NCBI GenBank assembly: GCA_963678705.1
Contig: OY783206.1
Span: 15,821,807-15,885,806 of the forward strand
DNA: 64,000 nt
Source of the DNA: Panorpa germanica
Lineage: Eukaryota > Arthropoda > Insecta > Mecoptera > Panorpidae
Direction: 5' to 3'
Below are positions 2,989 through 54,770 of this stretch, piece by piece (position 1 is the first letter of the stretch; the number at the start of each line of letters is the position of its first letter). Position numbers and translations under genes: made by a program. The notes below the pieces were generated by a model that worked only from the letters and a program-made list of their open reading frames with translations, made no database searches and was not told where the DNA came from.

Positions 2989-3730
2989 TTCTGTTTCTTT
3001 GTCGCATTGTTATCAAACCAGTTTCTAGTTTTTGTATTTTCTCAAAGATTTGTTTGTTTACATTTTGCTGCTCGTTCATATTGTTAAGAATTTGATTTAG
3101 CATTCCTTCTATTGTTCTTTTTTCTTCTCTACCGCTGGCAATCTGGCTGTATGTTTTAGGCGCTTCGCTGCTTCCGCTACTTGCTTGTATATTTGCAGGT
3201 TGAATCTCCTTTTCCTGTGTATACCTTCGTTGTACTTGTACTTGCTTCTTCTGCTTTGTAATATTGTCCCTTCTGTTTTGAAGTTCCATGGCTACTACAC
3301 ACCCTCTGTAGCTAGCTGGATGATCTCCTTTACAGTTGATGCATATGGGAGTCGTCTTTCTACTTACTGTACAAGATATGGTATTGTGTTTTCCAGCACA
3401 TCTCACACATCGTGAATCTTTATTGCAGTAGCTTTGAGTGTGATTAAACTCCTGACACCTCTTGCATTGTGGTATTAAACGTGTGTTTTTCCGAAGCGGT
3501 TCTATTTTTACTACTATATTTAGTATGTTTCTTATTTCATATATTTTGTCTATACTCTCCTTATTGTCAAAAGTTAGCATAAATAGCGGTAGTAACCGCT
3601 TCGTAGTCTCTCGTTTCTCGTTTATTTCTTTTTTGATTATGTTGATTACATCCAGCACTTTTAATCCTTTCCCTTTAAGATCTTCAATGATATCATTTTT
3701 GTCGCATGATGGATGCAGCCCTTTAGCCAT
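2981..3730 (-). CDS. LINE ORF1, gag-like nucleic-acid chaperone with zinc knuckles
   Basis: At least 249 residues. It begins within a PRE_C2HC-type region (IKVMAKGLHPSCDKNDI, counting the in-frame upstream codons), then has a run of CCHC zinc knuckles: CKRCQEFNHTQSYC, CVRCAGKHNTISC and CINCKGDHPASYRGC, at about residues 108-150. A polar C-terminal region with a possible coiled coil follows. In jockey elements this protein binds element RNA and forms the ribonucleoprotein particle. The frame extends upstream of Met 3730 to about 3870, so the true N-terminus is lost. Its last codons overlap the ORF2 start by 8 bases. Confidence 0.8.
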   Translation of the reverse strand: MAKGLHPSCDKNDIIEDLKGKGLKVLDVINIIKKEINEKRETTKRLLPLFMLTFDNKESIDKIYEIRNILNIVVKIEPLRKNTRLIPQCKRCQEFNHTQSYCNKDSRCVRCAGKHNTISCTVSRKTTPICINCKGDHPASYRGCVVAMELQNRRDNITKQKKQVQVQRRYTQEKEIQPANIQASSGSSEAPKTYSQIASGREEKRTIEGMLNQILNNMNEQQNVNKQIFEKIQKLETGLITMRQRNRNE

Positions 3731-4068
3731 GACTTTAATTGTTCTTTCGTTTTTATCCTCATAAGTATGCCATTGAAGTTTCTTATCATTTAGTTGGGCG
3801 GCTAATGCTCTGTACGCATTATGGTCAGGGGTATTTATCTTCCAGGCATTGTTGCTTAAAGAAGTGACTTTGCTTGAATTATTGGATCAAAAATTTTGGC
3901 AATATTCGACAAAATGGTTCTTTTCGTGACATTTTGTGATACGTTCGGTTTACTTATATTATATTCAATGACGTCGTTAGATGCGTCCCATTGTAATCCC
4001 AACGTCTTTATGGTATTGTCATCGATGGATTATTTTTGTTTCACATCTTTAGGTGGAATGCCTTCTAA

Positions 4069-4500
4069 CTATTTTAGTTCATTTGATGCCCATTGTCGCA
4101 TTCTTAATCCCCCAAGAGGAAGCAGTTTATGTAGTTGTTTGCGAATTTCAAGAGTTCTTTCAATGATATCAGATCCTTCTAAGCAATCGTCGACGTACAT
4201 TCTTTGAAGAGGGGCTGTCGCGGCTAATGGGAATTTATGATGTTCGTCTCGGGCTAGTTGATGGAAGCCTCGTATGGCCAGGAAGGAAGCTGGAGTCAGT
4301 CCGAATATAAGCACTTTGAATTCGTAAACTTTAATTACTCCATCAGGGTCAATCCAGGGTATACGTAGATATTTTCGATCTTCTGGACGAATAACAAATT
4401 GCTGATACATTTTTCCAATATCGCCAGTGAGGACATATTTATGTGTGCGGAAGCGAATGAGAGTTGTAAATAAACTATCCTGCAACATGGGACCGGTCAT
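4069..4500 (-). CDS. BEL/Pao reverse transcriptase fragment (fossil)
   Basis: A 143-residue frame with BEL/Pao reverse transcriptase features: LTGDIGKMYQQFVI (first catalytic aspartate region), FGLTPASFLA, and YVDDCLEGSD (the YVDD catalytic box). The sequence on its left continues with pol-like residues to about 3877, reading KRTILSNIAKIFDP, a conserved BEL motif after the RT palm. It belongs to the broken BEL element whose gag lies at 5036-5329. Confidence 0.8.
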   Translation of the reverse strand: MTGPMLQDSLFTTLIRFRTHKYVLTGDIGKMYQQFVIRPEDRKYLRIPWIDPDGVIKVYEFKVLIFGLTPASFLAIRGFHQLARDEHHKFPLAATAPLQRMYVDDCLEGSDIIERTLEIRKQLHKLLPLGGLRMRQWASNELK

Positions 4501-5035
4501 TAACTGCTCGTTCAGAGATATGCCAGAGTTACTCTTGGCCGAGCCGTCGAATACAATTCGTCTTTTAGTAGTGATGCTGGTTTCTTTAATTACTGCATGA
4601 TGGGGTAAAAAAGACCGTCATTGGAGTCAATTGGCTCCTTAACTTTGTTCATATATCCACGATCGATGTATTATTGAATAGAGACAGCATATTATTTCTT
4701 AAACTCAGGATCTCGTTGCATTTTGCAGAGAATACCTCGAAGTCGGTTCTCGGCCATCACTGGTGAGTCGCCTGGTGGGAGAGCAATTTCTTTAAAAGGT
4801 AACGCTAATATTGAGCGACCATCTTTGTCTCGAGTAAAGGTGCGGGAAAAGTGTTTCTCACATGCAATATCTTCAGCAGATGCGGGTACGCTTGAAGACG
4901 CGTACTCCTCTATTTTTGAGATTTTTTTTGGTTCAAATCTAATGTTTGTAGCCTTACAGAACAGTGTGGCATTTTCTTGAGTATTACCTGCAACGCTTCC
5001 TCCAATATTCCGACCTAATAACGTGTTTTGTAGAC

Positions 5036-5329
5036 TTACATTATGAATTCGCGGAAATAATCGCTTGTAAATAGTTTTTGCAATTTATAAATAATTTCTT
5101 CATCGGCGTCATCATGCTCCACGGCTGCATCGATATTCCGTAATTCATCCTGAATATTTTTGAGTCCGGCTATAACTGCTTCAACCTTTTCTGCGCACTC
5201 TTTCGCGAAATCTGCATCGACGTACTCGCCACCATCGTCTAGTAACTTTGAAAATCGTGTGATTTTCGATTGTATTTGTTTGCGTTGAGCGACAAGTACT
5301 ATTACACGTTTCTTGATTTCTTCAGCCAT
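5036..5329 (-). CDS. BEL/Pao gag, N-terminal part (fossil)
   Basis: A 97-residue frame starting MAEEIKKRVIVLVAQRKQ. It is highly charged and predicted helical, the usual look of the N-terminal region of BEL/Pao gag, which forms the particle inside the cell. It sits about 330 bases inside the LTR and just upstream of the recognisable pol sequence, the expected place for gag. It is part of a broken element and not a host gene. The family call rests mainly on position. Confidence 0.55.
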   Translation of the reverse strand: MAEEIKKRVIVLVAQRKQIQSKITRFSKLLDDGGEYVDADFAKECAEKVEAVIAGLKNIQDELRNIDAAVEHDDADEEIIYKLQKLFTSDYFREFIM

Positions 5330-5660
5330 GATGGATGGCTAATGGATTGAGCTAATTGTTGCTTTTATATGCTACTAGGCTCTCTCAGACTGTTACTGTG
5401 AGCCACACGACTTCACACTCCAAGCTTTCTTGAATGTTAGAAAATTCGAAGATTTGTGTTCTTCATGCACAATGAACGAATGTCATTTATGCACTACACA
5501 ATCTGTTGCACAATAATACGTTCGATTAGAGTACGATGGCTTGTGATCTGGATGCACTATGAAACTAATGGCATTCATGCACTACACAAGCTCTGGCACA
5601 ATCAAACGTTTTATTTTAGTTGCAAATAGTTCTCTTACTCACATCTGGCTCGAAGGACCA

Positions 5661-33984: not shown

Positions 33985-34841
33985 CACATAAATAATATTA
34001 ATTAAAATATAAAAAATAATTAAATTAACATTAACAGGTACTCATAAATGTAATTTTTGTTACTAAGAAATATACAATTACATATTAATGAAATAAAATA
34101 AATAAATTTATATATATATTTTTTACTTATATTCACTAATTCAAATAATTCCTAGATTATATAGTTAGATAAAACACATAACAATTGTAATTTAATAAAT
34201 GCTTAAAACTGTAATGCATCTTACTTGTAGTAAAATTTTTTTGTTTTATTATTTTAATATGGGAAAACAAATCTAACAAAGCCAGTACTACAATGCCCGC
34301 AAACGAATGAAGAAGACTAATCTATATTTCTCTGTCTCAGTGTATTGCTTTAATAGTAAATACTCTTTTAATAACACTAATTTAGTTTAATTAAATTGTT
34401 TTATTATTTATCTCAACAATATATTATATTTTAGTATTAAAATTTATAGTGTGTCAAGTCAAGAATAAATCGTTTGTCATCTTTTAGAGCAGATTTTTAA
34501 GCTATTTTATTGATAGGTATGTAATATGTTTTGTTATATTTAGCAGAGATAAACTATTAATTTATATTAATCAGGTTTATTATATTTAATTAGATGTACA
34601 CATGAGTTATGATGTCACAGAGTATAGAATTACATAGTAGGACGGTATTACAGAGTATAGTATTAACTACAGTATTACCGAGTGTAGAAAGAAAGATACA
34701 ATAGTGTCAATACCGAAAGGGCGCTAAATTTAAATCCAACACTCCCTCTAAATTTAGACATTCTAACAACAAATTATGATTAATTGAGTGCAAAAAACAT
34801 GAAAATATTAATCAAGTTATAGTACAAGATATTCTAACATA

Positions 34842-36644
34842 TCACTTAACAAAAGAGTTGTAGTTAAGCATACCAAGTTTAGATCTTAAGAATTGGAATT
34901 TATCTTTTGACAATGCTTTAGTTAATATATCTGCATATTGATCAGCAGTGCTTACAGATTTAAGATCTATAATCTTTTGAGAATATTTTTCTTTTATGAA
35001 GTGATACTTAATATCAATATGTTTACATCTTTTATGAAAATTTATATTCTTAATTACACTGATGGCACTTTGTTTGTCCAAATGTAAACACATAGTGTCT
35101 TGTTTATATTCACCAATATCACATAACACTTGCTTTATCCACATAGCTTCTTTTGTTGCAGCACAGGCGGCCATAAATTCAGCTTCTGTTGTTGACAGAG
35201 CAACCGTCTGTTGGCGTTGGCTTGACCATGTTACAGCAGCACCATTCTTTATGAAAACGTAGCCAGTAACTGAGCGTCTTGTATCAATATCGTTTGCATA
35301 ATCAGCATCACTATAACCAGTAACAGCTGGTGGCTCTGATGTTGATGAGTAGTTCAGGCCATAATCTTTAGTATCCTTTAGGTACTTGAAGATCTTCGTG
35401 ACAGCATTCCAGTGTGATTTGTTATAGCAACTTAAAAATCGACTTACCAGGCTTACGGCAAACATAATTTCTGGTCGACTGACTGTAGCTAGATGCATAA
35501 GAGAACCTACAGCTTCTCTATAAGGATAGTTTTTCTCTGGTTCTCCATCTTCCTTTTGTAGCTTGACATGGGGGTCCACTGGAACAGTGTTCGGGTTAGC
35601 GTCAGTCATGTTAAACTTCTCTAACAGTTGTTCCACATACTTGGTCTGATATATAAAAATACCGTTGCTAAATATCTCAATTTGCATGCTGTTTTCACAG
35701 GATAGACCTTCAGGCGGAGTCATAAATATGGTCTCTTCAAGTTCACCATATAAAAATGCAGTTTTTACATCAAGTTGTAAGATTTTAAGTTTATTTTGAA
35801 CAGCCATGGAAAGTAATAAACGTATTGAATCATACCTTACCGTCGGAGCGAAGGTTACTGTGTAGTCAATACCTGCGGTTTGTGCATATCCCTTAGCACA
35901 AAGTCTTGATTTGAACCGTGGACCCGTTGACTCTTCTTTTATTCGGAACACCCATTTACTACCGATCACTTTGGCATTTGGAGGTTTTTCTATCAATGTC
36001 CAGGTTTCATTTTTCTTATGAGCATCAAGTTCTTCATTGATTGACTTTTTCCATTCATTTTTATTTGTTGAATGTACTGCTTCTTCATATGTTACAGGAA
36101 CACAGGATGAGAATAAACACAGATGAGTATGTTCTTCAGTACATGGACAGTTGAAATTCTTCTTTTTTGTTTTATTTCTTGGTCTCAATGTCACATTACT
36201 GACGGGAGGAGAATCAATTCTGGTGTTAGGTAAGTATTCACTGTCGGATGTTGACCTGTTTCCTTTCTCTGTTTCATATGCACTTTCTGAATTTGTGTCG
36301 TTGTCAATCAAGCTGTCCTCTTCTGTTGTTGCATTTTCTCTTACATCTTCTTTTCTTGTATTTGTTTTGTCATTTTCAGTTTCTGTCTCATTCAATTCTA
36401 CCGAAACAAAATCTCTTTTCACTGAGGATTCAAGAAATGTAGCATCTCTGCTCTTTATTACCTTTCTAGTATTTGGTAATGTGAATCTGTATCCTTTTGT
36501 ATTGTCGCAGTATCCGATGAAGATCATTTTGTGAGCCTTTGGATCCCATTTTCTGCGTTTTTCTTTAGGTAGATGAACCATTGCTTCGCAGCCAAATATA
36601 CGCATATGATTAACATTTGGTTTGCGTCCAGACCAGATTTCCAT
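34842..36644 (-). CDS. Copia integrase C-terminus, RT and RNase H region (fossil)
   Basis: 600 residues. It starts with the integrase tail (MEIWSGRKPNVNHMRIFGCE, FIGYCDNTKGYR), an acidic linker, then RT (WVFRIKEESTGPRFKSRL, CAKGYAQTAGIDYTVTFAPT, LQLDVKTAFLYGELEE) and RNase H (YSDADYANDIDTRRSVTGY, LSTTEAEFMAACAATKEAMW, DIKYHFIKE). It ends shortly before the left LTR. Confidence 0.9.
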   Translation of the reverse strand: MEIWSGRKPNVNHMRIFGCEAMVHLPKEKRRKWDPKAHKMIFIGYCDNTKGYRFTLPNTRKVIKSRDATFLESSVKRDFVSVELNETETENDKTNTRKEDVRENATTEEDSLIDNDTNSESAYETEKGNRSTSDSEYLPNTRIDSPPVSNVTLRPRNKTKKKNFNCPCTEEHTHLCLFSSCVPVTYEEAVHSTNKNEWKKSINEELDAHKKNETWTLIEKPPNAKVIGSKWVFRIKEESTGPRFKSRLCAKGYAQTAGIDYTVTFAPTVRYDSIRLLLSMAVQNKLKILQLDVKTAFLYGELEETIFMTPPEGLSCENSMQIEIFSNGIFIYQTKYVEQLLEKFNMTDANPNTVPVDPHVKLQKEDGEPEKNYPYREAVGSLMHLATVSRPEIMFAVSLVSRFLSCYNKSHWNAVTKIFKYLKDTKDYGLNYSSTSEPPAVTGYSDADYANDIDTRRSVTGYVFIKNGAAVTWSSQRQQTVALSTTEAEFMAACAATKEAMWIKQVLCDIGEYKQDTMCLHLDKQSAISVIKNINFHKRCKHIDIKYHFIKEKYSQKIIDLKSVSTADQYADILTKALSKDKFQFLRSKLGMLNYNSFVK

Positions 36645-36689
36645 AGGAGTCTTGAAAGCTAAGGATTTGTTTGTGGAACGATTGATGAT

Positions 36690-37313
36690 CTAAGCAGCAG
36701 TGTGTATTGCATCTGCCCAATACAACTTCGGCAGACCAGCGTTGAGTAGCATGCACTTCGCTTTTTCAACCAGTGTCCGATTCATGCGTTCCGCAGTCCC
36801 ATTCTGTTCAGGCGTGTATGGTGTGGTGGTCTGATGAATGATTCCGGCACCTTTCAGGTAATCAGAGAAGGCTTTGTTATCGTATTCAAGTCCGTTGTCT
36901 GTACGAAGAACCTTTATACGAGCATCCAATTGATTTTCAACTTCTTGCTTGAATTCTTTAAATTTACTGAGCACTTCAGACTTGTTGTGAAGAAAGTATA
37001 CTGAAATCTTCTTGGAATATTCATCTAGGAAGGTTAAAAAATATCTGCTCCCACCGAGAGACTGGGTTTCCATTGGTCCACATACGTCAGAATGAACCAA
37101 TTCTAGGGGTTTGGTGACTCTTAATCCATCACTTTTAAAAGGTAACCGTGTCTGCTTTCCTTCTTTACAAGTTATGCATTTCAGATTTTCTGTATTTCCT
37201 GAGAAAGTTAAATGCTCTGTGTTATCAGACAATTTTTTCAAAGTTTGGAAATTAAGATGTCCCATCCTCTGGTGCCAGCAAAAAGCATCTTTTTCATGTT
37301 CAACACTAGACAT
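36690..37313 (-). CDS. Copia integrase (fossil)
   Basis: 207 residues. It has the zinc-binding start (HQRMGHLNFQTLKKL, CITCKEGKQTRLPF), then the DDE core with LVHSDVCGPM (first Asp), LRTDNGLEYDN (second Asp) and TTPYTPEQNGTAERMNRTLVE (Glu). It follows protease and precedes RT in the usual Copia order. Confidence 0.9.
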   Translation of the reverse strand: MSSVEHEKDAFCWHQRMGHLNFQTLKKLSDNTEHLTFSGNTENLKCITCKEGKQTRLPFKSDGLRVTKPLELVHSDVCGPMETQSLGGSRYFLTFLDEYSKKISVYFLHNKSEVLSKFKEFKQEVENQLDARIKVLRTDNGLEYDNKAFSDYLKGAGIIHQTTTPYTPEQNGTAERMNRTLVEKAKCMLLNAGLPKLYWADAIHTAA

Positions 37314-37357
37314 GTGCGCAAGGCTTTCAGTTCGTGTCCGAACTAGCGTATAATCAA

Positions 37358-38407
37358 CTACGCTCTGCTACCATTTTTAATAATTTGGCTTACAGATATC
37401 AGATTAGTTGCCAATTCAGGAACATATAAGACATTTGTGAACAGAATCTTATTCTCTTGTCCGTTTTGGTCATAAATGTTTAAGCTGACATCTCCTGAGC
37501 TTTGCACAGATAACACTTTGTTATCAGCAACACGAATGTTCAGTGTTATAGGGGTAGTTTCCTTTACAATTATATTCTTGGTCTTAGTCATATGTGCCGA
37601 AGCACCGGAGTCTATGTACCAAGCATCACCATAGTGGGATGATGTAACAAACACAGCAGCATGAGAAGAGCTAGGTTTCTGAGTCTTGTTCATGGGTTTG
37701 TATTTGTTGCATTCAGAGCGTTTATGTCCATATTGATTGCAGGAATAACATCTCGCCCCCTTGAAGAACTTCTTCTTTACAGAGTTGTTATGAAACTTCT
37801 TGTTGACAGCAAAAGCCGTTGTTTTGTTGTCTGAATTTCTAACATCTTGCAATAATTTTGCTTTAACACCGTCTGCAGTTATTTTTGTGCCTGAGCTTTC
37901 GATCGCAATAATCATTGGTTGATATGATTCGGGCAGACCGGAGAGCAGCAATGTCCCGAGCCACTCGTCGTCCACTTTAAAGCCAATGTTGCGCAGCTTG
38001 TGAGCAGTTGACATAATTTTGCTCACATACTCTTCTATACTTTGACATCCACTTAACGATGTGTTACATAAATCACGTAGCAGACCAACTCGGCGTGTAA
38101 GTCCTGAGTCGTCGAACACTGCAGCCAATTTGTCCCAAACTCCTTTGGCCGTGTTTTCCTCTTGGATATGAACGTAATGGATCGGATCAACCAGAAGAAT
38201 TAACTTTGTTTTCGCTTTTGTATCACGTTTTGAATCTGTGGGTGACGCCGGGTTAACCTCAATACAATCCCATAATTCTTCGTGTTGTAGGTATGTTTTC
38301 ACTGCGAATTGCCAAGTCGAATAGTTTTCACGGCCGGTTAACTTCTCGATTAATGCCAGTGAATTATTCGATGCCATTTTTATTCGTTGAGAACACTTTA
38401 AACACAA
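37358..38407 (-). CDS. Copia gag and protease region (fossil)
   Basis: 349 residues. The gag start reads MASNNSLALIEKLTGRENYS with WQFAVKTYLQHEELWDCIE, then the UBN2-type region (VWDKLAAVF, LRDLCNTSLSGCQSIEEYV), a zinc knuckle CYSCNQYGHKRSEC, and the protease motif WYIDSGASAHMT (active-site DSGA). In the family this makes the particle and processes the polyprotein. Residues before MASNNS come from the leader. Confidence 0.9.
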   Translation of the reverse strand: MCLKCSQRIKMASNNSLALIEKLTGRENYSTWQFAVKTYLQHEELWDCIEVNPASPTDSKRDTKAKTKLILLVDPIHYVHIQEENTAKGVWDKLAAVFDDSGLTRRVGLLRDLCNTSLSGCQSIEEYVSKIMSTAHKLRNIGFKVDDEWLGTLLLSGLPESYQPMIIAIESSGTKITADGVKAKLLQDVRNSDNKTTAFAVNKKFHNNSVKKKFFKGARCYSCNQYGHKRSECNKYKPMNKTQKPSSSHAAVFVTSSHYGDAWYIDSGASAHMTKTKNIIVKETTPITLNIRVADNKVLSVQSSGDVSLNIYDQNGQENKILFTNVLYVPELATNLISVSQIIKNGSRA

Positions 38408-39887
38408 AAAAGAACAGAAACAGTTTCAACAGCCACGTTTTTTTTTTAAGGTTATGTTCACCACTAGTCTTTATTCACTTTTTACTTTTCGAAAACACTC
38501 ACTAAACGTCTCTAGGTTTATCTGGGCCGATAACCTGTTATATTTAGCAGAGATAAACTATTAATTTATATTAATCAGGTTTATTATATTTAATTAGATG
38601 TACACATGAGTCATGATGTCACAGAGTATAGAATTACATAGTAGGACGGTATTACAGAGTATAGTATTAACTACAGTATTACCGAGTGTAGAAAGAAAGA
38701 TACAATAGTGTCAATACCGAGAGGGCGCTAAATTTAAATCCAACATGTTTATAAGCAGATTTATTTATATAAATTTACTTACAATTTTGGTTTTCCGATT
38801 CAGTTTTACCTAAGCCATCTTTTTTCAACGTAATATGTATGTCAGTGATTTAAAAATGTTTTGTAAGAGTTGATATTCCTAGGCAAACCTATTTACAACG
38901 GTCATTTTATAAGAAATGTTATTGTTGTTTGAACACCTGTAGATAATATTTGAAACTGAGCCTTAGGATTGGTTAAATTCATGTCAGACATTTCGTTTAA
39001 AATGCTTCCCCTTGTAGACTCTGTTTTAACACACTAATTAGTTGATAACAGAGACACACCCGTGACGTCACGTGTTGATCTAATTTTTATAACTTTTGAT
39101 CTCTGTAACTGTTAAAATAGCAGTATCAAATTACACTATTATTTATTTAAGAAAAAATAAATTAAATCGTTGTTGCAATTTAATTAATTCTGTACCATCT
39201 TATTCTATTCTTCGATATCTAATCATAATTTAAAAATTTAAGGTCGCCCTTGCACTGCAGCATACTACATGCAACGACGACTTTTTGAGTTGGATGTATT
39301 AGAGTGTTTCGCATTAGTATCCTTTATCATAAGATGAACCGACGGTTATCTAATTTTCTTTAATATTTATGAATACACCACTGTACACTGTACTACTACA
39401 ATTTTACCACCAGTACAGTATTAGCAGAATTACAGTGTGGTTGTATTGTATTGGTCTGAGTTGCTATAGCCTGACTTGCATGATAAGTTTTGTATCTGAA
39501 ATCAATTAATACAAGTATAATAATATAAAAGTGCAAATTAGAACAAGAATCCTTCTCGAATATTCCAAAGTAATATCTACCTAATCCTACCCTTAACACC
39601 ACTGACTACAATTTTAAACCATAAATTATTTAATGCTAAAACCAAGCAAGGAAATAAAAATGGAAGAGTGGACGAAACTCTTTATGGGAGTACTAGGAGG
39701 AAAGAAAAGAAACGAGAAAACAAAGAAGGGGATAAAAGAGAAGGAGAAAGTAAACGATATAAAATTAGGTGAAATAAAAACACAGATTTAAAAACTCAAG
39801 GAAAAGAAAGCACCAGGTAGAGATGGACTAAAGAACGAGGCGTGGAAAGCTGGGCAAGAAAGGATAGAGAAAGGATTACTGACAGCG

Positions 39888-40865
39888 ATGAACAAGATAT
39901 GGAAAGGAGGAAACCTGCCAGACAGCTGGAGAGAAGGGGTAATAACGCCGATATATAAAAAGGGAAATAGACATGAAGCCAAAAATTACAGGGGTATCAC
40001 ACTACTGAACACAGGGTACAGGATTTATGCAGGGATTGTGAGAGACAGACTGGAAGAAGAGGTAAAAGTAAAAGAAATACTTCCCGAGACACAAGCAGGC
40101 TTTAGAAAGGGACGAGGGACTTTAGACAATATATACGCACTGAACCATTTAGTTGAAAAAGAGCTAAGTGAAAAGGGAGGACAGATATATGCAATGTTCA
40201 TCGACCTTAAAGCGGCGTTTGACATGGTCGACAGACAGAAATTGTGGAAGTGCATGAGAAAGAAAAAAATAGATGAGGACATAATGGAATGTATTGAAGA
40301 AATTTACGAAGAAACAAGAATGAGAATAAGAGTTTGGGGTGAAGAATCAGAAGAATTCTGGACAGACAAGGGGTTGAGGCAAGGTTGTCCTCTGAGCCCC
40401 ATTTTATTTGCGATATATACAGCAGACTTGGAGGGGGTAATGGAAAGAGGACAAGATGGGGGGGTGCTAATAGGAAGGCACTACAAGATATGGACTTTAG
40501 CATACGCTGACGATATAGTCCTGTTGGCAAAAAGGGAAGGAGAGCTGCAGGAGATGGCACACCGGCTAGGGAGGTATATAGACAGGAAAGGACTAGAGTT
40601 AAACGTGGAAAAGACAAAAATTATGGTATTTAAAAAAGGGGGTGGAAAAAGGAGACATAAAAGGTGGAAATACAAGACAGAGGACATTGAGGAAGTTGAA
40701 GAATTTAAATATCTGGGCTACACTTTTAAAAAGAACAATGGAGAAGAGGCGCATATAAGGGAGGTGGCAAAGAAGGCAGAGCAAGCAATGCGACGGGTAT
40801 GGGGACTAGGGGAAAAGGTATTTGGGGGGAAATACAAAAGAGAATATGGATATATGAGAGACTGA
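39888..40865 (+). CDS. LINE reverse transcriptase fragment
   Basis: 325 residues: GVITPIYKKGNRHEAKNYRG, TQAGFRKGRGTLDNIY, YAMFIDLKAAFDMVDR, GLRQGCPLSPILFAIY and LAYADDIVLLAKREGE (YADD catalytic box), then the thumb with EEFKYLGYTFKKN. The upstream codons to 39643 also read as RT (KKAPGRDGLKNEAWKAG), so the visible frame start at 39888 is only the first Met after a stop. The C-terminal region continues in other frames to 41606. It belongs to an APE-type LINE without RNase H. The clade was not resolved. Confidence 0.85.
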   Translation: MNKIWKGGNLPDSWREGVITPIYKKGNRHEAKNYRGITLLNTGYRIYAGIVRDRLEEEVKVKEILPETQAGFRKGRGTLDNIYALNHLVEKELSEKGGQIYAMFIDLKAAFDMVDRQKLWKCMRKKKIDEDIMECIEEIYEETRMRIRVWGEESEEFWTDKGLRQGCPLSPILFAIYTADLEGVMERGQDGGVLIGRHYKIWTLAYADDIVLLAKREGELQEMAHRLGRYIDRKGLELNVEKTKIMVFKKGGGKRRHKRWKYKTEDIEEVEEFKYLGYTFKKNNGEEAHIREVAKKAEQAMRRVWGLGEKVFGGKYKREYGYMRD

Positions 40866-41117
40866 TAGCCAGTATGATGTCGTATGGAGCAGAGGTTTGG
40901 GGGTGGAAGGAACAAGAAAAGCTGAAAAGAATACAGGTGAGATACATGAAATGGGTACTAGGGCTGGACAGGTGCACGCCAGGATACATGGTAATGGAGG
41001 AGCTAAAGAGGGATAAAATACGAATTAAAACAGGGGAAAGAGCGGTAAAATACGAGGAAAAATTGAACAGAGCGGAAAGCAAAATCTTAAAGAAAATAAG
41101 AGAGAATTACATAAAGA

Positions 41118-41606
41118 ATGGGGGGGGGAGGAGGTCCAAAAAAGAGAAAAGAATACTTTGAAAGGAATGGAATGGCGATCGAGGAGGCAGAGAGGAGAAG
41201 AGAAGGTGGCGCAAGTGTGGCAGAGGAGCTAAGGAGAAGGGATAAGGAGACACAGCAGCAGGAGAGAATGGGAAAAATAGAAAAAAGTAACTACAATAAA
41301 AGATATAAGAGGTTATGGGAAAATAATGTGCCTCAGTACCTTATAGAAAAAGATATAAAACACATAAGAAGAACAGCAAGGTTTAGATTGGGAAATGAGG
41401 AAAAAGGAAACAGATACTGGGAAAAGAGTGAGGAAAGAAAGTGTAGAATGTGTGGAGCGGAGGACGAAACACTGGAGCACATTAAGTTTGAGTGTAAGGA
41501 AAAAGTAGCAAGCGAAAGGAATATTGGCCAGCTATTAAAGGGAGGCAGTGAAGGAAAGAGGTGGATGGCGGAAATAGTAAGAAGGAAAGGAAAAACAGGA
41601 GAATAA
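41118..41606 (+). CDS. LINE ORF2 C-terminal segment with Cys/His cluster
   Basis: 162 residues, strongly charged, with RTARFRLGNEEKGNRYW and CRMCGAEDETLEHIKFEC, the terminal zinc-knuckle-like cluster of many LINE ORF2 proteins. The start lies in a poly-G run, where a frameshift separates it from the preceding frame (40799-41161). The ORF2 end at 41606 is followed by a 3' UTR of about 180 bp and the tail. Confidence 0.7.
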   Translation: MGGGGGPKKRKEYFERNGMAIEEAERRREGGASVAEELRRRDKETQQQERMGKIEKSNYNKRYKRLWENNVPQYLIEKDIKHIRRTARFRLGNEEKGNRYWEKSEERKCRMCGAEDETLEHIKFECKEKVASERNIGQLLKGGSEGKRWMAEIVRRKGKTGE

Positions 41607-42081
41607 ATAAGATGGTGGAGAATAATAGAGAGGGTCAAAAGAAGAAGAAGCAGAAAGCACTTTTGGAAGTAGTAAAAGTCGAGAAGATTTTAAGTTTATT
41701 TTAAGTTTAGTTTTAAGTTTGGAATGTATATAGGAATGAAATGTATTAGAAATATAATACTGTAGATTGTAAAGCCGAAAGGCATACACAATTAATATAT
41801 AAATAAATAAATAAAATTTAATGCTAAAACAATTTATCTACATAAAAGAAAAATACAATAGAAAATAAAATCAATAGAAAAATTAAATATAAATTTAAAA
41901 AACCAGTAACTAAAGGAAACAAGTTGTACTCCAAACGATGTTTCAATAGATGCTTTGTTTTCCTATTAATAATTGTTAAAGAGAGGTAGAACAGTGTAAA
42001 TGGGAGACATTTCTACTAGCATAAATTACATCAAAAACATTTTATGAATCCGCAAAACGTCAAAATAGTAACGAGTCCAAC

Positions 42082-43584
42082 ATGGAATTTATAATTCATA
42101 ATTACAACTACGCCCTGCCGCGTAATCAAGAGTATGGTGCTTCAGTTAATCCTAGTTCAGTTAACATGGAATTTAAAATTGATAATTACAAGTACGCCCT
42201 GCCGTGTAATCAAGAGTATGGTACGGCAGCTAATCCTAGTTCCGTTAACATGGAATTTACAAGTGACAATTACAACTACGGCCTGCCGCGTAATCAAGAG
42301 CATGGTACGGCAGCTAATCCTAGTTCCGTTAACATGGAATTTACAAGTAATAAATACAACTACACTCTGCCTTGTAGACAAGAAAGTGATGCACTATTAT
42401 TACCGACAATCAGTACGACCGAAGCAGGTAAATTCGATTAAGAAGAACACCTCTATAAAAAATAATTAATTCAAATTATTTAATATTTGAAATATTTTTA
42501 CTTTATTTCCGTTACTTATATTCATGTCAAAATGTTGGTATTTTCGCTTTTCCATTTATTGTTTGTCTTCGGAGTCGGATTCTCATTTTTTTTTGGATCA
42601 TAATTTATTAATAAATTAATTACACTTTTATTTATTTGCTGAAGTTTATGTCACTTCCGAATTGGCGATTTTGACAATACGTTCTAACCACAATTTCTGT
42701 TCACAAGTAACAAAGGTATATTGAATTTTGAAAGCAATTCTTCTTTCGTCGCTCGGTAATTGAATTTATTTTTAATTCATTTTGTTTGACCTTCGAATGC
42801 ATCACTTCGTAAATTTTAAAAATATTTTTCATTAATGTTTTATTTGTAACATCTTTTAGATAACTTGGTAAATATGGAAAGAACTCAACCAGATCTTCTG
42901 ACCACAAGTGGATTATTAGAGGAAAAGTTCTTTTATGATACATGTCAAGAGTCCTATATATCAACAAATATTTTGCAAAACCATTTATGTGCAAAGAAGT
43001 CCAAGAAGATGTCGTCTTTCGATGAAATAAATAAGCTGTATTCCAGTAAAGTCAATACAAACTCAGACAAAGTAGGAACACTTTATTCTGCTAACACACG
43101 TAATAATGCATCAAATTGGTCCCCAACTTTATTGGGCGTTACACAGAGATCAGACACTAAGACAAAACGTCACCGTTGCGATTAGTGTGAGAAATCATTT
43201 TCGTCTTTATCACATTTGACTGTTCATAAGCGTATCCATACGGGAGCAAAGCCTTACCGTTGCGATGAGTGTTCAATGTCATTTAAACAGAATATTACCT
43301 TGAATAGACATATGCTTACACATACGGGAGAGAGACCTTACCGTTGTGATGAGTGTTTAATGTCATTTAAACCGAATATTACCTTGAAAAGAAATATGCT
43401 TACACATATGGGAGAGAGACCTTACCGTTGTGGCGAGTGTTCAATGTCATTTAGCCAGAATAGTAACTTGAAAAGTCATATGCGTACACATACGGGAGAA
43501 AAACCCTATAAATGTTGTTATTGCAATTACTCGACTTCTCAGTCTGGCAACTTAACAACACATAAAAGACTTCATACAGTTTAA
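42082..43584 (+). pseudogene. C2H2 zinc-finger gene with 28-residue repeats, two exons, one in-frame stop
   Basis: Exon 1 (42082-42427) encodes four tandem 28-residue units (84-bp minisatellite) of the pattern MEF-x4-NY-x-Y-x-LP-x-NQE. A GT donor at 42428 and an acceptor TTTTAG ending at 42859 define a 432-bp phase-1 intron. Exon 2 (42860-43584) continues in frame with a polar linker, then five C2H2 fingers with TGE(R/K)PY-type linkers (for example HTGERPYRCDEC), a likely DNA-binding factor. A TAG at 43183-43185 falls between the two Cys of finger 1. Finger 3 has Asn at its first His position. A sixth, degenerate finger (YHCVKWERLFIQ) follows the final stop. Apart from the single stop it is well kept, so it could be a recent pseudogene, a polymorphism or a read-through gene. 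Confidence 0.7.
42428..42859 (+). other. Predicted intron of the zinc-finger gene
   Basis: It starts GTAAATTC and ends in a T-rich tract then CATCTTTTAG. Joining codon GAT (phase 1) keeps the frame from the 28-residue repeats into the finger exon. It is AT-rich with no repeat recognised. Confidence 0.6.
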
Positions 43585-47435: not shown

Positions 47436-48122
47436 GGCCTGTCTCAGTATGGCACCGTATTTAAGTGAATTTCTGCCGGACGTATACGGGCTTCTACGCT
47501 TTACCTATCCGAACCCTGTAAATGTAATGAGAACTCTCTGGACCTCTCATACTGCAAGCTACAAAGCCGTCCGAATACGGGCGGCACTACCTCGCACATT
47601 AGAAGCGTATAAAGGCGAATTTTAACCAAGCGTTACCACTACTACAACGATATCCTATCCGAACCTTTGTAAATGCAAACAACCGCCTCAGACTGGAGGG
47701 GACACCTAAGATCGCTTGTTCTTTCGCTGCAATACGGATCTTTTCGGATCTATCGGCGACATCGCTTGTGACGAGTATGTTCAGCATGCTTCAGTTTATG
47801 TTTGTATTTCAGTGAATCATGGACAACGAAAAATTAATTCTTTGAATTCAAGAAAGAGAGATTAAATTCACGCGAACCAAAACTCAGATATATAATAAAT
47901 GCTAAAGTCCCTTTAATACCAGTAGTGTATCGATAAAAATTAAAGTTAAAGTTTGCTCTCATGATAAATTATATAAGTGCTAAAGAACTCCCATACACCC
48001 CCTAATACACGACTACAGACATCTGTGACACACATAGGCGGTTTGCTTTGTAGCTAATCCAATCCGCCAATTTACGTCCGAATACGCCGTCGCTTAAATA
48101 CGGTCCCATACTGAGACAGGCC
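47436..48122. mobile_element. PIF/Harbinger-type MITE
   Basis: 687 bp with perfect terminal GGCCTGTCTCAGTATGG and near-perfect ~30-bp inverted repeats, flanked by TAA (47433-47435 and 48123-48125). Copy A shows the unoccupied site TTTTACCTAAGCCATC near 38807. A 3-bp TAA duplication with GGCC-start repeats is the Harbinger pattern. No transposase frame lies inside, so it is non-autonomous. Confidence 0.75.
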
Positions 48123-49288
48123 TAAGCCATCTTTTGTCAACGTAATATGTATGTTAAATACGTCAGTGATTTAAAAATGTTTTGAAAGGGTTGATATTCC
48201 TAGGCAAACCTATTTACAACGGTCATTTTATAAGAAATGTTATTGTTGTTTGAACACCTGTAGATAATATTTGAAACTGAGCCTTAGGATTGGTTAGGTT
48301 CCTGTCAGACATTTAGGAATGCAAAGATTGTTTGAAATGCTTGCTCTTGTAGACTCTGTTGTAACACACTAATTAGTTGATAACAGAGACACACCCGTGA
48401 CGTCACGTGTTGTTCTAATTTTTATAACTTTTAATCTCTGTAACTGTTAAAATAGCAGTATCAAATTACACTATTATTTATTTAAGAAAAAATATATTAA
48501 ATCGTTGTTGCAATTAACTTAATTCTGTACCATCTTATTCTAATCTTTAATATCTAATCATAATTTAAAAATTTAAGGTCGCCCTTGCACTGCAGCGTAC
48601 TACATGCAACGACGACTTTTTGAGTTGGATGTATTAGAGTGTTTCGCATTAGTATCCTCTATCATAAGATGAACCGACGGTTATCTAATTTTCTTTAATA
48701 TTTATGAATACACCACTGTACACTGTACTACTACAATTTTACCACCAGTACAGTATTAGCAGAATTACAGTGTGGGTGTATTGTATTGGTCTGATTTGCT
48801 GTAGCCTAATTTCCATGATTAATTTTTGTTAAAATTAGCAGAGATAAACTATTAATTTATATTAATCAGGTTTATTATATTTAACAAAATGTACACATGC
48901 GTTATGATGTCACGGAGTATATAAAACATAGTAGGACAGTATTACAGAGTATAGTATTAACTACATAGTAGGACGGTATTACAGAGTACAGTATTACCTA
49001 CAGTACTACCGAGTATAAAAACAAAGATAGAATAGTGTCAATACCGAGAGGTAGCGCTAAATTTAAATCCAACACTCCCTCTAAATTTAGACATTCTAAC
49101 AACAAATTATAATTAATTGAGTGTCAAAAAACTATTATTAAAAATATTAATCAAGTTATAGTAGAAGATATTCTTAATTTCACTGATGGCACTTTGATTG
49201 TCCAAATGTAAACACATAGTGTCTTGTTTATATTCACCAATATCACATAAAACTTGCTTTATCCACATAGTACAGTATTGTAGAAGTG

Positions 49289-50434
49289 TCAATTACTAAA
49301 GAGCGCTAAATTTAACTCCAACACTCCCTCTTGTAGCTTGACATGAGCGCAATTGCAGTTGTTATTATTTGATTCAACAAGAGGTCCAGGATAAGGATCA
49401 GATTTTTGGTAAAGTCCTGACAATTTCACGCTCAAAATAATGCATGGTATAAATAACAAAATGCACCATCCCACTCCAGCCCAGAATCCATTAAATGGGT
49501 CTAATATTCTGTTACATCCAGCGACTAATATGGAATCATATACATTAGCCACAGGACCGCAAATTCCCACTTTGAATTTTAATTGACCAACGATATACGA
49601 AAAAAAATCCTTAATATTAGTCTCAATTCCCTCTGCAAATGTTCTTATTAACTTTTTAATTAATAAGGTTCCCTCATTATTTGACTCATTTTCTGCATGC
49701 GTAACTTCTTCGATAACTTTGTCTATAGCTTCATTAAACTTGTTATGACCAAACTTTAATTGAACATCTAGTTCTGCAGCTTTATCTGATAAATATTTGC
49801 TACTTGAGATCATAGGGTCAACTAAATTATCCTGGTAAGACCTCAAATGTAAAGCTTGATTTCGTAAAACTAAACCAACTTCAGGTTTGTAAGAAGGTGG
49901 AAGTTTATTTGCAGCATCAGCCAATTTATCAGCAAGTTCAGCAAGATTGTAGTTAGTAATATTTCCACCCAGATTGTCAACATATTTATAAAATGGAAAA
50001 TCACTGAGAGAGCTAGTTTGCAATTCTCTTATTCTATCCTTAGCTACGTCATTCATTATTTGTACAGTTCCATCTAATTTAAAATCGTCTATTAACTCCG
50101 ATAGTGTTTTATGTATTCCAAACTTGTCAATATATTCTGTAACTGTATCCAAATCCAAAATGTTTTGCATTTTTAACGTCGTATAAATAGTCTTATTTGT
50201 GCGACAATCTTCAATAATATCACTAAGAACAAGCTTGTCTTTATGATCTTTTGAATATAGTTTATCACCTATATTCAGTAATTCATCAACTAAACTAAAA
50301 AGTTGATCATTCGCAGGATTATTTAGTGGTACGCAAACTCCTCGATATGCAACTAGTCCAATTACAAAATAGATTAGGGCAAATGCAGCTAAAATAGTTG
50401 TAGTCAAAAACATCAGTCCGACGCCACACATCAA
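49289..50434 (-). pseudogene. Prominin-like captured gene, C-terminal part with Copia-derived tail
   Basis: 381 residues in a frame that overlaps the preceding one by a few bases. A membrane segment (LMFLTTTILAAFALIYFVIG, about 7-29, like prominin TM4) is followed by a second large loop of about 270 residues with glycosylation sites and Cys, then the last TM (about 318-340: GWCILLFIPCIILSV) and the cytoplasmic tail YQKSDPYPG. The final residues HVKLQEGVLELNLALFSN are encoded by sequence matching Copia pol (VKLQ) and LTR end, so the tail is chimeric. With the N-terminal part it makes a shortened prominin in two frames. It could not give the normal protein. Confidence 0.75.
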
Positions 50435-51249
50435 AAATGTACTTCCAGCTCCTTTATTGCAACAATCATCACCATATCCAGAGACACAGCACCCGTGACG
50501 TTAGCAAGTTCATTTGATATTATAGCACCGCCGGCATCTAAAGATTTTTCAAGCCCTTTTTGAACTTCATCAAAATTGTCGACTAAGATATGTCTAACAT
50601 GCTTTGCTGTACTCTCCAAATATTTCACAGAATCTCTTGAAGCGATTCTGTTAGAGTTAGGAGCTAGTTTAATACCATCTTCCATATAACTGTTTGTAAC
50701 AAAAGCTACAACAACACCAAATAGCATGGCAGTCGCTACCCCTATTAACAGCAACCCCAAAATGACTCGTCGGCAAGTGTTATGTTTTTTATCAAAGGGT
50801 TGCGTTCTCGCACCACAAGAACCAGCACAACGACAGCAACAGAAACAAAATCCAATAATTGGCATCAAAATAGCAATAAGTAAACCTAGAATAACGATCA
50901 CAATCAAGAATGCATAGTGTGATGCTAAAGTGGTCCATTGTGTAGCAAAATCACCAACCACGAAATTGCCGTCCTTCACAGTTAAAAAACCATCTGGAAC
51001 TGCTTTTTCACCGACAACTGCATTGAGAACCACGTGTGTCCCATTATACAACGGTGCCATCCCCTTAGCGCTGAACGCTGTGCTAGCTTCGTATTTTGCA
51101 TGGCTTTGGTATTCTGTGAATTCAACCTTGCCTAAGTCGATGGCCCTTTCCAATAACTCGACCACTTCTTTCCTATTACTATGTTGACTACTTCCACCAC
51201 TCAATAATGTAGTTAATATTATAAAAACAAATAGTTTTAATTTAGCCAT
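50431..51249 (-). pseudogene. Prominin-like captured gene, N-terminal part
   Basis: 272 residues with a signal peptide (MAKLKLFVFIILTTLLSGGS), an extracellular start with an N-glycosylation site (NGT near 69), TM1 at about 112-137 running into the Cys-rich cytoplasmic stretch FCFCCCRCAGSCGA, TM2 at about 161-185, then the start of the large extracellular loop. This layout and the CCCRC cluster are hallmarks of prominins, five-pass membrane glycoproteins of cell protrusions. There is no intron, although host prominin genes are intron-rich, so it looks cDNA-derived. About 350 bases of AT-rich sequence upstream may be its 5' UTR. Compared with whole prominins, most of the first large loop and TM3 are missing before the next frame begins. 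Confidence 0.75.
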
Positions 51250-51639
51250 TTTATATTTTTTTTTTTATTTCAGCACGTATTTTTGATTGTTTGTTTGTTT
51301 TTTTTTTAATTAGTTACATTATATGTACCAGTTGCACCTTGTTATTCTTTGGTTTGTTTTCAGATTTTTCTGATAGTTTTTTTTTTTATGTTACCACATC
51401 GTCAATATTTAAGACCAAGAAAATAAACAAAAAGATTTTCATAAATTTAACACTTATATAAATAAACTACACTAATTATATAAATTTATGAAGCACAATT
51501 AATATTTATATATTACTTTTAATATATATTTCAGTTATATTTGTATATGTTTTTATAACAAAGAAATATATATTCATTGAGCACTACATCTCCCATCTAA
51601 CGTCCGACATTTTTGTTTTCATTATTTTACCAAACAGAT

Positions 51640-51985
51640 CAGAGAATGACCCGAGACCACAGTAGTCAGAGTCAATTGTCAATGCTCTCACCCGGCTGTG
51701 TCTTGCCAAACTCCGGTCTGGTGTATCGAACCCGAGGGCATAGTATCAAATACTCGGTGCCCATTGTTCGAACCTGGGACCACAGTGTATTGACGTTATA
51801 GCTTTAACCGTCTCGGTCACTGTAGAACCTTCCGGTAATAGAGAATAACCCGAGACCACAGTAGTCAGAGTCAATGCTCTCACCAAGCTGTGTCTTGTTA
51901 AACTCCGGTCCGGGGAATCGAACCTGGGACCACAGTGTATTGACGTTATAGCTTTAACCGTCTCGGTCACTGTAGAACCTTCGGT
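51640..51985 (-). repeat. tRNA-derived SINE-like dimer
   Basis: Two related units (about 51640-51825 and 51841-51985) share ACCACAGTAGTCAGAGTCAA and the tRNA-like head. On the minus strand each has an A-box-like GACCGAGACGGTTAAAGC and a B box GGTTCGA, closest to a Ser/Leu tRNA-type promoter. They lie between the Copia gag part and the prominin cargo, so they were inside the element or inserted into it. No poly(A) or simple-repeat tail was clear. Confidence 0.5.
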
Positions 51986-52666
51986 TTGTGCAAATCCCTT
52001 AGCACAAAGTCTCGATTTGAACCGTGAACCCGTTGACTCTTCCTTTATTCGGAACAACCATTTACTGCCGATCACTTTGGCATTCGGAGGTTTTTCTATC
52101 AATGTCCAGGTTTCATTTTTCTTATGAGCATCAAGCAGACCAGAGAGCAGCAATGTCCCGAGCCACTCATCGTCCACTTTAAAGCCAATGTTGCGCAGCT
52201 TGTGAGCAGTTGACATAATTTTGCTCACATACTCTTCTATACTTTGACATCCACTGAGCGATGTGTTACATAAATCACGCAGAAGACCAACTCGGCGTGT
52301 AAGTCCGGAGCCGTCAAACGCTGCGGCCAATTTGTCCCAAACTCCTTTGGCCGTGTTTTCCTCTTGGATATGAACGTAATTGATCGGATCAACCAGAAGA
52401 ATTAACTTTGTTTTCACTTTTGTATCACGTTTTGAATCTGTGGGTGACTCCGGGTTAACCTCAATACAATCCCATAATTCTTCGTGTTGTAGGTATGTGT
52501 TCATTGCGAATTGCCAAGTCGAATAGTTTTCACGGCCGGTTAACTTCTCGATTAATGCCAGTGAATTATTCGATGCCATTTTTATTCGTTGAGAACACTT
52601 TAAACACAAAAAAACAGAAACAGTTTCAACAGCCACGTTTTTTTTTTTTAAGGTTATGTTCACCAC
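51746..52666 (-). CDS. Copia gag fragment fused to an RT piece (fossil)
   Basis: A 306-codon frame. It starts in the leader, then gag (MASNNSLALIEKLTGRENYS, VWDKLAAAFDGSGLTRRVG), very like the gag at 37358-38407, then a short RT-region piece (DAHKKNETWTLIEKPPNAKV, SKWLFRIKEESTGSRF), then SINE-derived codons. It forms the 5' part of the cargo-bearing Copia element. Parts only are listed. Confidence 0.8.
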   Translation of the reverse strand: MVNITLKKKNVAVETVSVFLCLKCSQRIKMASNNSLALIEKLTGRENYSTWQFAMNTYLQHEELWDCIEVNPESPTDSKRDTKVKTKLILLVDPINYVHIQEENTAKGVWDKLAAAFDGSGLTRRVGLLRDLCNTSLSGCQSIEEYVSKIMSTAHKLRNIGFKVDDEWLGTLLLSGLLDAHKKNETWTLIEKPPNAKVIGSKWLFRIKEESTGSRFKSRLCAKGFAQTEGSTVTETVKAITSIHCGPRFDSPDRSLTRHSLVRALTLTTVVSGYSLLPEGSTVTETVKAITSIHCGPRFEQWAPSI

Positions 52667-53199
52667 ACTAAAAGTCTTTATCCACTTTTCCGAAAAACAC
52701 TCACTAAACGTCTCTGGATTTATCTGGGCCTATTAATTTATATTAATCAGATAAACTATTAATTTATATTAATCAGGTTTATTATATTTAACAAAATGTA
52801 CACATGCGTTATGATGTCACGGAGTATATAAAACATAGTAGGACAGTATTACAGAGTATAGTATTAACTACATAGTAGGACGGTATTATTTAGTACAGTA
52901 TTACGTACAGTACTACCGAGTATAAAAACAAAGATAGAATAGTGTCAATACCGAGAGGTAGCGCTAAATTTAAATCCAACAGTTTTGTATCTGAAACCAA
53001 TTATTACGAATATAATAATATAGAAGTGCTAGTTAGAACAAGAATCCTTCTCGAATATTCCAAAGTAATATCTACCTAATCCTACCCTTAGCACCAGTGA
53101 CTACAATTTTAAACCATAATTTGTTTAATGCTAAAACAATTTATCTACAGAAAAGAAAAATACAATAGAAAATAAAATCAATAGAAAAATTAAATATAT

Positions 53200-54770
53200 T
53201 GTTTGGGCAAAAGTGATGCCCGGGTATTTCACCAAAAGTAGTCAGCAAGTCTTTGAAGTTCGTGGACTCAATATGAATTTAAACATATATTTATTTCATA
53301 GAAAATTACACATTGGAGTCGTAAATCCCAGCAGAATTACACAATTAAACACTTATCCTAATAATTAATAATAATGAATGTATATAAATGTATGTGAATG
53401 TCTTAATGTATATATTTTAATATTAAATTGTACTGTTACTTAATACTTGTTGTCTCGTTGAGAGTTGGTTCAAAAAGGGATGATTTTAGTATAATACATT
53501 TAACACTTAAAATTGAAAAGAGTGGGGATGAACCCATAATACAATTTGCGGACATATTGAATGAAAATAGGTAATAAAATTATTGGTAACAAGAAATGTA
53601 AGTCTGGTTTTACACATCACACATCAAAATGTACAGGCGGCACTCACTAAAGTACATCTACACTTTTGCCTTAAAAACATGTAAAATTAAGTTATATTAT
53701 AGTTTTATTTTGATGCATGTTTTTGTCCATACTCCCCCCTTTATAAATTGGGTTTATCAAAACGAGTTCACTGTTAAAAGGGCTAAACGTCCGACAGCAC
53801 GTTTGATCTCTCCTGGTTGAGTTTTCAAGGTGGCGGCTCTCGGAGTGTTGTCGTTGCCTGCAGTGAGATATGTTATGCGTCCCATTATCCATTGAGTAGG
53901 AGGTATATTGTCTTCTTGTACTGTTACAAGTGATCCGATTTCTAGATCCAGGGTGCTTGATGTGTTCCATTTTGCGCGCTGTTGACAGAAGTGGATATAG
54001 TCTGTATACCATCGTTGTATCTGCTGGAATCTTCTCATGTTGTTGAGGTTCACTGGCGCTCCTGGAGTAGGCATAGCACTGCTGATTTGTCGACCTATGA
54101 TTAAGTGTCCGGGAGTACAGGGAATAAGGTCATCTGGATTGGGTGACATGGGGTACATTGCTTGTGAGTTCAATATTGCTTTATTCTGAGTTAATTTATA
54201 GAAAATATTATTAGTTCCGCTGAAATGTATTGATTGAACATTGAACTCTGTAACTAAGTTTCTTTTGTAGCAAAAACAATTAAAAAGGTATATATAACAT
54301 TTAATGATAGAACCATCATATTTACTTTTTATTAGTATGGGCCCTGCGCAGTCAACTCCAGTAGTTCTAAATTGATAGTTGAGTTTTAATATGCGGTAAA
54401 TTGCATTGCATTTATTGGTTATAATAATTTTTTCCTTAGGAATTTCTGGTAAATTGAAATTATATATAGGCCAGTGATTAGACGGTTGCTTTAACCAGGA
54501 TGGACCTGACCATAGTTGGCTGTTTAAAAGAAAGTCTAATATGATACTTTGTGATATAAAATCTGCCTGGTGTAAGTTTATAGGAACACAACGCCATTGA
54601 TAATTGTCTGTCATGTCTGAATGAATGTCTGTAATACGGTTAGCAATAAAGTTTTAAGTTATGAAGAGACAGTTTAATCCATGATAGCATAATTGTGGAA
54701 TCTGCCCATAAGTAGATGAGTAGGGCCGCTTCTAGGACAGTTTAGAAGTTGAGTTGGAAATTATTGGTGG
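53200..54770 (-). mobile_element. BEL/Pao remnant with 3' LTR (fossil)
   Basis: A 3' LTR at about 53200-53733 (plus-strand start TGTTTGGGCAAAAG) is preceded on the minus strand by a purine-rich tract AAAGGGGGGAG. Internal sequence from about 54770 to 53757 encodes the end of RNase H (LWADSTIMLSWIKLSLHNL), an integrase part (TTGVDCAGPILIKSKYDG) and the C-terminal BEL domain (PGHLIIGRQISS, PPTQWIMGRITYL, IKRAVGRLALL). It inserted into copy B at 53199. The right side ends against the Polinton. It is broken and fairly old. Confidence 0.8.
53757..54614 (-). CDS. BEL/Pao pol C-terminal region (fossil)
   Basis: 285 residues: the RNase H/integrase linker (NLHQADFISQ, LWSGPSWLKQP), an integrase part (FRTTGVDCAGPILIKSKY) and the DUF5641-type tail (DLIPCTPGHLIIGR, RWYTDYIHFCQQRAKW, LVTVQEDNIPPTQW). 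It is the best-preserved piece of the BEL remnant at 53200-54770. Confidence 0.85.
   Translation of the reverse strand: MTDNYQWRCVPINLHQADFISQSIILDFLLNSQLWSGPSWLKQPSNHWPIYNFNLPEIPKEKIIITNKCNAIYRILKLNYQFRTTGVDCAGPILIKSKYDGSIIKCYIYLFNCFCYKRNLVTEFNVQSIHFSGTNNIFYKLTQNKAILNSQAMYPMSPNPDDLIPCTPGHLIIGRQISSAMPTPGAPVNLNNMRRFQQIQRWYTDYIHFCQQRAKWNTSSTLDLEIGSLVTVQEDNIPPTQWIMGRITYLTAGNDNTPRAATLKTQPGEIKRAVGRLALLTVNSF

Follow-up and report, generated by a model that had tools for sequence, protein, structure and literature searches.

How does the coding sequence of a host membrane protein come to lie between the long terminal repeats (LTRs) of a Copia-type retrotransposon, and is it a gene of the element or its freight? 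The question is raised by 64,000 nucleotides of the insect Panorpa germanica (GCA_963678705.1, contig OY783206.1, positions 15,821,807 to 15,885,806 of the forward strand; hereafter the window), in which a first-pass annotation had placed an intronless prominin-like sequence between two Copia LTRs and in the same orientation as the element. Both points hold. Two minus-strand open reading frames (ORFs), at 50431-51249 and 49289-50434, match the Pfam Prominin profile PF05478 at profile positions 10-230 (E 8.1e-54) and 465-799 (E 1.5e-79), and introns were not found in this cargo. We consider it highly probable (roughly 0.87) that the element belongs to a non-autonomous Copia LTR family carrying an internally deleted copy of spliced prominin mRNA, likely acquired once by template switching and likely spread by the enzymes of related elements.

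A Single Copia Insertion Bearing Prominin Sequence

The region 48827-52981 on the minus strand is a single Copia insertion that carries prominin complementary DNA (cDNA). Its direct repeats, 48842-49074 and 52749-52981, are identical at 229 of 233 aligned bases (98.3%), and its ends read atttt, TGTT...AACA, gtttt, which bears out the probable 5-bp target duplication claimed earlier, with one mismatch between the two sides. The empty site proposed for a sister repeat, copy A, is indeed uninterrupted at about 39487-39491, as seen in copy A only. Both LTRs contain an extra stretch of about 36 bp that is missing from the neighbouring Copia copy in the window and therefore belong together; LTRs and cargo form one insertion, as had been supposed. 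Two separate LTR insertions are ruled out by the private LTR stretch and the single empty site.

A third ORF (51746-52666, minus strand) joins copia gag (PF14223, E 1.4e-17) to the start of a reverse transcriptase (RT) domain (RVT_2, E 2.1e-9), and this homology makes the element a member of Ty1/copia, as do the TG...CA LTR pair and the 5-bp duplication. Along the minus strand follow one another the 5' LTR, leader, gag, RT piece, a repeat segment, the prominin 5' untranslated region (UTR) and coding sequence, about 25 nt, 15 nt of RT, an LTR-like fragment, the end of pol, a region preceding the LTR, and the 3' LTR. The primer binding site GGTTATGGGCCCAGA, which we take to pair with initiator tRNA-Met, stands directly after the 5' LTR in 13 of the 14 rows compared and is altered in the window copy. 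The protease-integrase stretch of the neighbouring copy and most of RT are absent, leaving no complete pol, and the prominin element is therefore non-autonomous.

The earlier reading had implied a complete prominin, which is not what the cargo holds: Prominin profile positions of about 231-447 are missing, and the two remaining halves (p1, N-terminal, and p2, C-terminal) are in different frames. The signal peptide and membrane segments of the cargo are putative, having been judged by eye only. A protein database search with p1 returned 12 proteins that are 36-55% identical to it, a PDB search with p1 alone gave no match, and the viral contigs searched with p2 held no relative.

The Parent Gene and the Capture Junctions

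When the source genome (464 Mb in 249 contigs) was searched with the Prominin profile, 56 of 64 candidates were scored and 54 matches obtained, among them exons of the intron-bearing host gene that the first-pass annotation had proposed to look for. The gene lies on the minus strand of contig C8, from 15861143 down to 15828705 (about 32 kb), in pieces that are 94-100% identical to the cargo by local alignment, and its exon series includes profile positions 290-431, from the region that the cargo is missing. The cargo lacks twelve host introns exactly, all of them GT-AG: one in the 5' UTR between exons 1 and 2, four others as far as exon 6, and seven from the second half. With these introns precisely removed between two LTRs, and with its end fused to Copia sequence without a poly(A), the cargo is an LTR-mediated retrocopy.

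The cargo, about 2.25 kb long and internally deleted, starts near the 5' end of the mRNA. Its match to the host begins at TGAAAAC, directly 3' of a host TCAGT, presumably the arthropod start-site motif (initiator, Inr), and because the cargo start adjoins this Inr-like motif it probably reaches the very 5' end of the prominin message. The internal deletion joins the interior of host exon 6 to the interior of a later exon. Exon skipping is ruled out as its origin, as neither end is a splice site. The overlap at the switch points is 1 nt at the internal deletion and about 1 nt where gag meets RT.

An intronless cargo would also result if a prominin processed pseudogene, made by a long interspersed nuclear element (LINE), had landed in a Copia element and the two had then been amplified together, and LINE-like sequence recognized by eye lies in the window near 40000-41600. 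We regard this as very improbable. No poly(A) tail and no target duplication of its own were seen on reading the cargo ends, the 3' end runs on into 15 nt of Copia RT and into LTR-like and RNase H pieces, and the separate internal deletion between gag and RT fits a pattern of repeated jumps in one cDNA.

A Dispersed Family Probably Founded by One Capture

The prominin-carrying family comprises at least 16 copies at at least 12 insertion sites on nine contigs (C2, C3, C5, C6, C7, C8, C10, C121, and C189), so that the proposed search for further LTR copies with prominin found the same sequence elsewhere. These counts are lower bounds that rest on the Pfam Prominin search. We compared 16 fetched stretches piecewise with the window copy, and 15 of them hold cargo. 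Comparison of flanks reduces the 16 copies to 12 sites (the window, L009, L010, L011, L012, the L013 group, L014, L015, the L017 group, L019, L020, and L021), one site being common to L013, L016, L022, and L023 and another to L017 and L018. A perfect 5-bp duplication is present at 8 of the 12 sites and one with a single mismatch at the window site, while those of L011, L012, and L021 are not readable. The flanks of L012, the L017 group and L019 are related repeats, their best stretches 81-85% alike, that received the element in separate insertions.

Of the 16 copies, 11 retain gag, the two LTRs and some of each cargo half; L010 is without leader and gag, L011 without the 5' part, L012 without the 3' LTR, and L022 and L023 without most of p2. 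In 15 of the 16 copies at least 37 of 40 positions across the internal deletion junction are preserved, and in 13 copies at least 38 of 40 across the host-to-Copia 3' junction. Because the internal deletion is common to nearly all copies, the family most likely goes back to one capture. The two LTRs of a copy differ by 0-3.3% (13 of the 16 copies compared, two of them over part of the LTR), and the cargo differs from the host exons by 1.3-3.3% over aligned bases in all 16 copies, with the window copy at 1.3%. In a tree of the copies the inner branches are short and their support is mostly moderate.

Two further observations concern the arrangement of family sequence. The small contigs C121 and C189 carry four family copies with one flank, either a segmental duplication or a repeat-rich array. 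A locus of rearranged pieces, L024 (C3:16533000-16542900), which is outside the copy counts, contains at 3400-5500 units that recur every 889 bp or so. These consist of element pieces facing opposite ways, namely the end of p2, the tail, an LTR and part of p1, and may represent a young satellite derived from the prominin element.

Evolution of the Cargo

Changes were counted over 16 copies for p1 and 14 for p2, from which L022 and L023 were left out with most of their p2 missing; the first 60 nt of p1, where some copies have indels, and columns near indels were omitted. Before trimming, p1 had 76 nonsynonymous and 26 synonymous changes and 4 stops, and p2 had 77, 20 and 9. Within the family, the retained columns of p2 hold 74 nonsynonymous changes, 9 stops and 19 synonymous changes, the last against an expectation of 21.5; for p1 the figures are 42, 2 and 20, the last against 13.5 (z 2.1). 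Most of the synonymous excess in p1 comes from changes confined to a single insertion (18 versus 12.0 expected), and we take it as weak because selection on a moving element could hardly cause such changes. Stops in p2 recur across insertions, one at three sites (L015, the L017 group, and L020) and one at four (L011, the L013 group, L014, and L021); copies bearing them therefore kept transposing, or exchanged sequence.

Host and family differ by 15 changes fixed in at least 80% of copies, of which 14 are synonymous, against 4.9 expected, and one is a replacement. We read these as the divergence of the captured from the sequenced host allele, probably gathered under constraint on the host gene, as replacements in a passenger would accumulate at the neutral rate. 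For gag, counted without L009, the tally within the family is 26 replacements and 1 stop alongside 16 synonymous changes, where 12.9 would be expected (z 1.05); differences fixed relative to the neighbouring copy amount to 4 replacements and 6 synonymous changes (2.8 synonymous expected). Judged from these substitution patterns, the cargo is under no clear protein-level constraint within the family and is most likely a passenger.

The same data could be taken to mean that the prominin piece is a selected working gene of the element, encoding a shortened membrane protein and possibly another product that starts at an overlapping ATG, as p1 ends and p2 begins in the shared letters TGATG. Both frames are open in the window copy, 14 of the 15 fixed differences are synonymous, and p1 has its mild synonymous excess. 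We think this quite unlikely, given that p2 changes as if neutral, with stops common to different insertion sites, that only 3 of 16 copies (the window copy, L012, and L020) keep p1 open all the way from the host ATG to the junction and 3 of 14 (the window copy, L009, and L010) keep p2 open, and that any RNA driven by the LTR would have gag ahead of p1. We rule out that TGATG evolved as a signal for reinitiation: identical letters stand in the host exon, and the overlap is a coincidence.

Some of these results weigh against a passenger acquired by template switching. The 14:1 ratio of fixed differences could also mean early constraint on the cargo, the synonymous changes in p1 are slightly above the neutral expectation, both frames remain open in the window copy, and gag is likewise without significant constraint within the family. 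At the junctions, an overlap of just 1 nt makes microhomology no proof, and the 3' switch point is blurred by the 25 unassigned nucleotides.

Proposed Capture Route and Source of Enzymes

The capture by template switching that we favour, after the model described in PMC5408686, may have begun with the packaging of Copia RNA and prominin mRNA together in a virus-like particle. The enzyme would have copied the 3' part of the element, switched to the prominin mRNA near the end of its coding sequence and run to the 5' end of that message, where the cargo start stands beside the Inr-like motif, before returning to Copia RT and gag by way of a repeat-containing RNA. The internal cargo deletion could be one more template jump. 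Integrase would then have inserted the chimeric product, and this founder, retaining its LTRs, the leader with the primer site and part of gag, could be recopied with enzymes from outside. With integrase and most of RT missing, the element presumably moves in trans.

Candidate suppliers are present in the genome. The integrase region of the neighbouring copy has at least 150 matches that are 94-100% identical (150 of 2487 candidates scored), and at least 20 of the 150 listed lie inside open frames of 1309 or 1322 amino acids. Intact Copia relatives are thus likely able to supply enzymes for movement in trans, and the prominin family probably uses them.

Among the matches scored, the LTR variant is largely the family's own. 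An LTR search gave 43 matches, with 40 of 676 candidates scored; within that scope, matches of at least 93% identity lie in the chimeric loci, in L024, or at C10:463943 and C98:264374, and the next class is 77-78% identical. The loci on C10 and C98 contain an LTR with its leader and the first 90 and 353 nt of gag, respectively, and no cargo in the 2.5 and 3.5 kb fetched; they may be truncated family members or remains of an ancestor.

Relation to Known Captures

Capture of this kind is already known in several systems, and the prominin family is a new, clear and unusually complete animal member. A template-switching model for LTR-mediated retrocopies in metazoans (Tan et al. 2016, as described in PMC5408686) accounts for spliced host mRNA between LTRs, and the Drosophila CG17604_r family is described as a set of LTR-flanked duplicates that were amplified further after capture (PMC8277862). 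The prominin family resembles these in its spliced host sequence, in the proposed template switching and, with CG17604_r, in amplification (PMC5408686, PMC8277862). It differs from the metazoan LTR retrocopies in its prominin cargo of about 2.25 kb, internal deletion, Copia chassis, own LTR variant and the 12 sites found. The first-pass annotation had held that a clear animal Copia case with a multi-pass membrane protein would be unusual; the clear Copia case with prominin stands, whereas LTR-mediated gene capture in animals was already in print (PMC5408686, PMC8277862, PMC9674220).

In the diamondback moth, Pxyfem is reported as a multicopy partial cDNA of Masc, attributed to template switching with an LTR element and associated with RNAs of the size of PIWI-interacting RNAs (PMC9674220). 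It is thus, like the prominin family, an insect multicopy partial cDNA explained by LTR-element template switching, described there as lying on the W chromosome in tandem clusters that contain LTR remnants and yield small RNAs (PMC9674220), whereas the present family consists of dispersed LTR elements with target duplications. With Pxyfem in Plutella as precedent (PMC9674220) and a dispersed cargo 97-99% identical to host exons, the prominin elements might be a host-regulatory family whose RNA, or small RNAs from the cargo, act in trans on prominin mRNA. We consider such a role quite unlikely; relative to its own LTRs the cargo lies in the sense orientation. The more specific idea, that a dozen nearly identical prominin copies give rise to RNA that feeds the silencing of native prominin by small RNAs, making the captured mRNA a heritable regulator, seems to us a little less likely again.

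Plants offer further parallels of host gene pieces within LTR elements (PMC13317346, PMC2774510). In maize, 425 LTR elements with gene fragments and at least 189 captures are reported (PMC2774510), and Bs1, which holds pieces of three genes, is reported to have a chimeric gene that is transcribed and translated (PMC13317346). Bs1 differs in being a plant element with three genes and a translated product, as described in that source (PMC13317346), whereas here one gene was captured and its frames are mostly broken.

The locus had also been likened to the capture of oncogenes by retroviruses. Acutely transforming retroviruses carry host cDNA in place of viral genes and are defective and moved by helpers. 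Host gene capture by an LTR element stands; the deleted, out-of-frame cargo is more a passenger than a working gene. Envelope, infection and an action of the cargo are not shown here, and no envelope search was made. A literature search on prominin, retrotransposon and copia found no such case in titles and the starts of abstracts, which is not proof that none has been published.

The family provides a natural animal series: a parent gene, a single founding capture whose switch points can mostly be read, and insertions at a dozen sites. It makes it possible to ask by what steps an LTR element acquires host mRNA, whether one capture suffices to found a lineage without pol, and what becomes of a freighted membrane-protein gene. 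It is also a warning that gene annotation may gain false prominin paralogues.

Organization of the Window Copy and Its Surroundings

Table 1. Features of the prominin-carrying element and its comparison loci, in window coordinates.
Feature	Position	Strand	Basis or remark
Target-site duplication, left copy, atttt	48822..48826	.	flank reading
3' LTR (TG...CA), 248 bp	48827..49074	-	alignment to 5' LTR
Region preceding 3' LTR, purine-rich stretch adjoining LTR	49075..49167	-	alignment
Match to end of neighbour's pol (RNase H, by eye)	49168..49270	-	alignment
LTR-like fragment within element	49271..49330	-	alignment
Copia RT, 15 nt, at cargo 3' end	49331..49345	-	alignment to neighbour
About 25 nt of unassigned origin, perhaps next host exon	49346..49370	-	host exon after last aligned one not found in fetched host DNA
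Prominin cargo, C-terminal half p2, eight host exons spliced, frame different from p1	49371..50480	-	host alignment
Internal cargo deletion junction, 1-nt overlap, off splice sites	50479..50480	-	host alignment; common to 15/16 copies
Prominin cargo, N-terminal half p1, host exons 2-6 spliced	50480..51249	-	profile and host alignment
Host prominin 5' UTR: exon 1 (to 51400) and start of exon 2	51250..51621	-	host alignment
Dispersed-repeat segment, internally repeated, resembling a tRNA-derived short interspersed nuclear element (SINE) by eye only	51622..51976	-	related stretch about 13 kb upstream of host gene
Copia RT start fragment, 159 nt, joined directly to gag	51977..52135	-	neighbour copy has about 1.9 kb more at join
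copia gag, N-terminal part (Retrotran_gag_2)	52136..52579	-	profile and alignment
5' LTR	~52741..52981	-	52749-52981 aligns to 3' LTR; inner (U5) end altered in window copy
Target-site duplication, right copy, gtttt, one mismatch	52982..52986	.	flank reading
Neighbouring Copia copy without prominin, tgttt on both sides; comparison copy	34532..38745	-	alignment
Copy A flank with empty site (~39487-39491)	39265..39642	+	uninterrupted target sequence

The repeat segment between RT and prominin varies in length among subgroups of the family, and matches similar to it lie at L009 2833-2877 and C8:15874296-15874350. A tRNA scan of the whole window yielded nothing in support of its SINE-like look, an Rfam scan of 48000-54000 nothing, and a tandem-repeat scan of 51500-52100 no useful result.

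The neighbouring Copia copy seems, by eye, to be without an internal piece of its own RT. The flanks of copy A (38809-39642) and of the prominin element (48121-53137) are a diverged repeat pair, with 795 of 862 aligned positions identical. Adjoining the element is an ORF on the minus strand (53757-54614) with a DUF5641 match (E 2.7e-21), a domain that we take to be found in BEL/Pao-type elements. Elsewhere in the window, spaced direct repeats of 84 bp form two arrays of three copies each, at 42079-42383 and 43226-43508.

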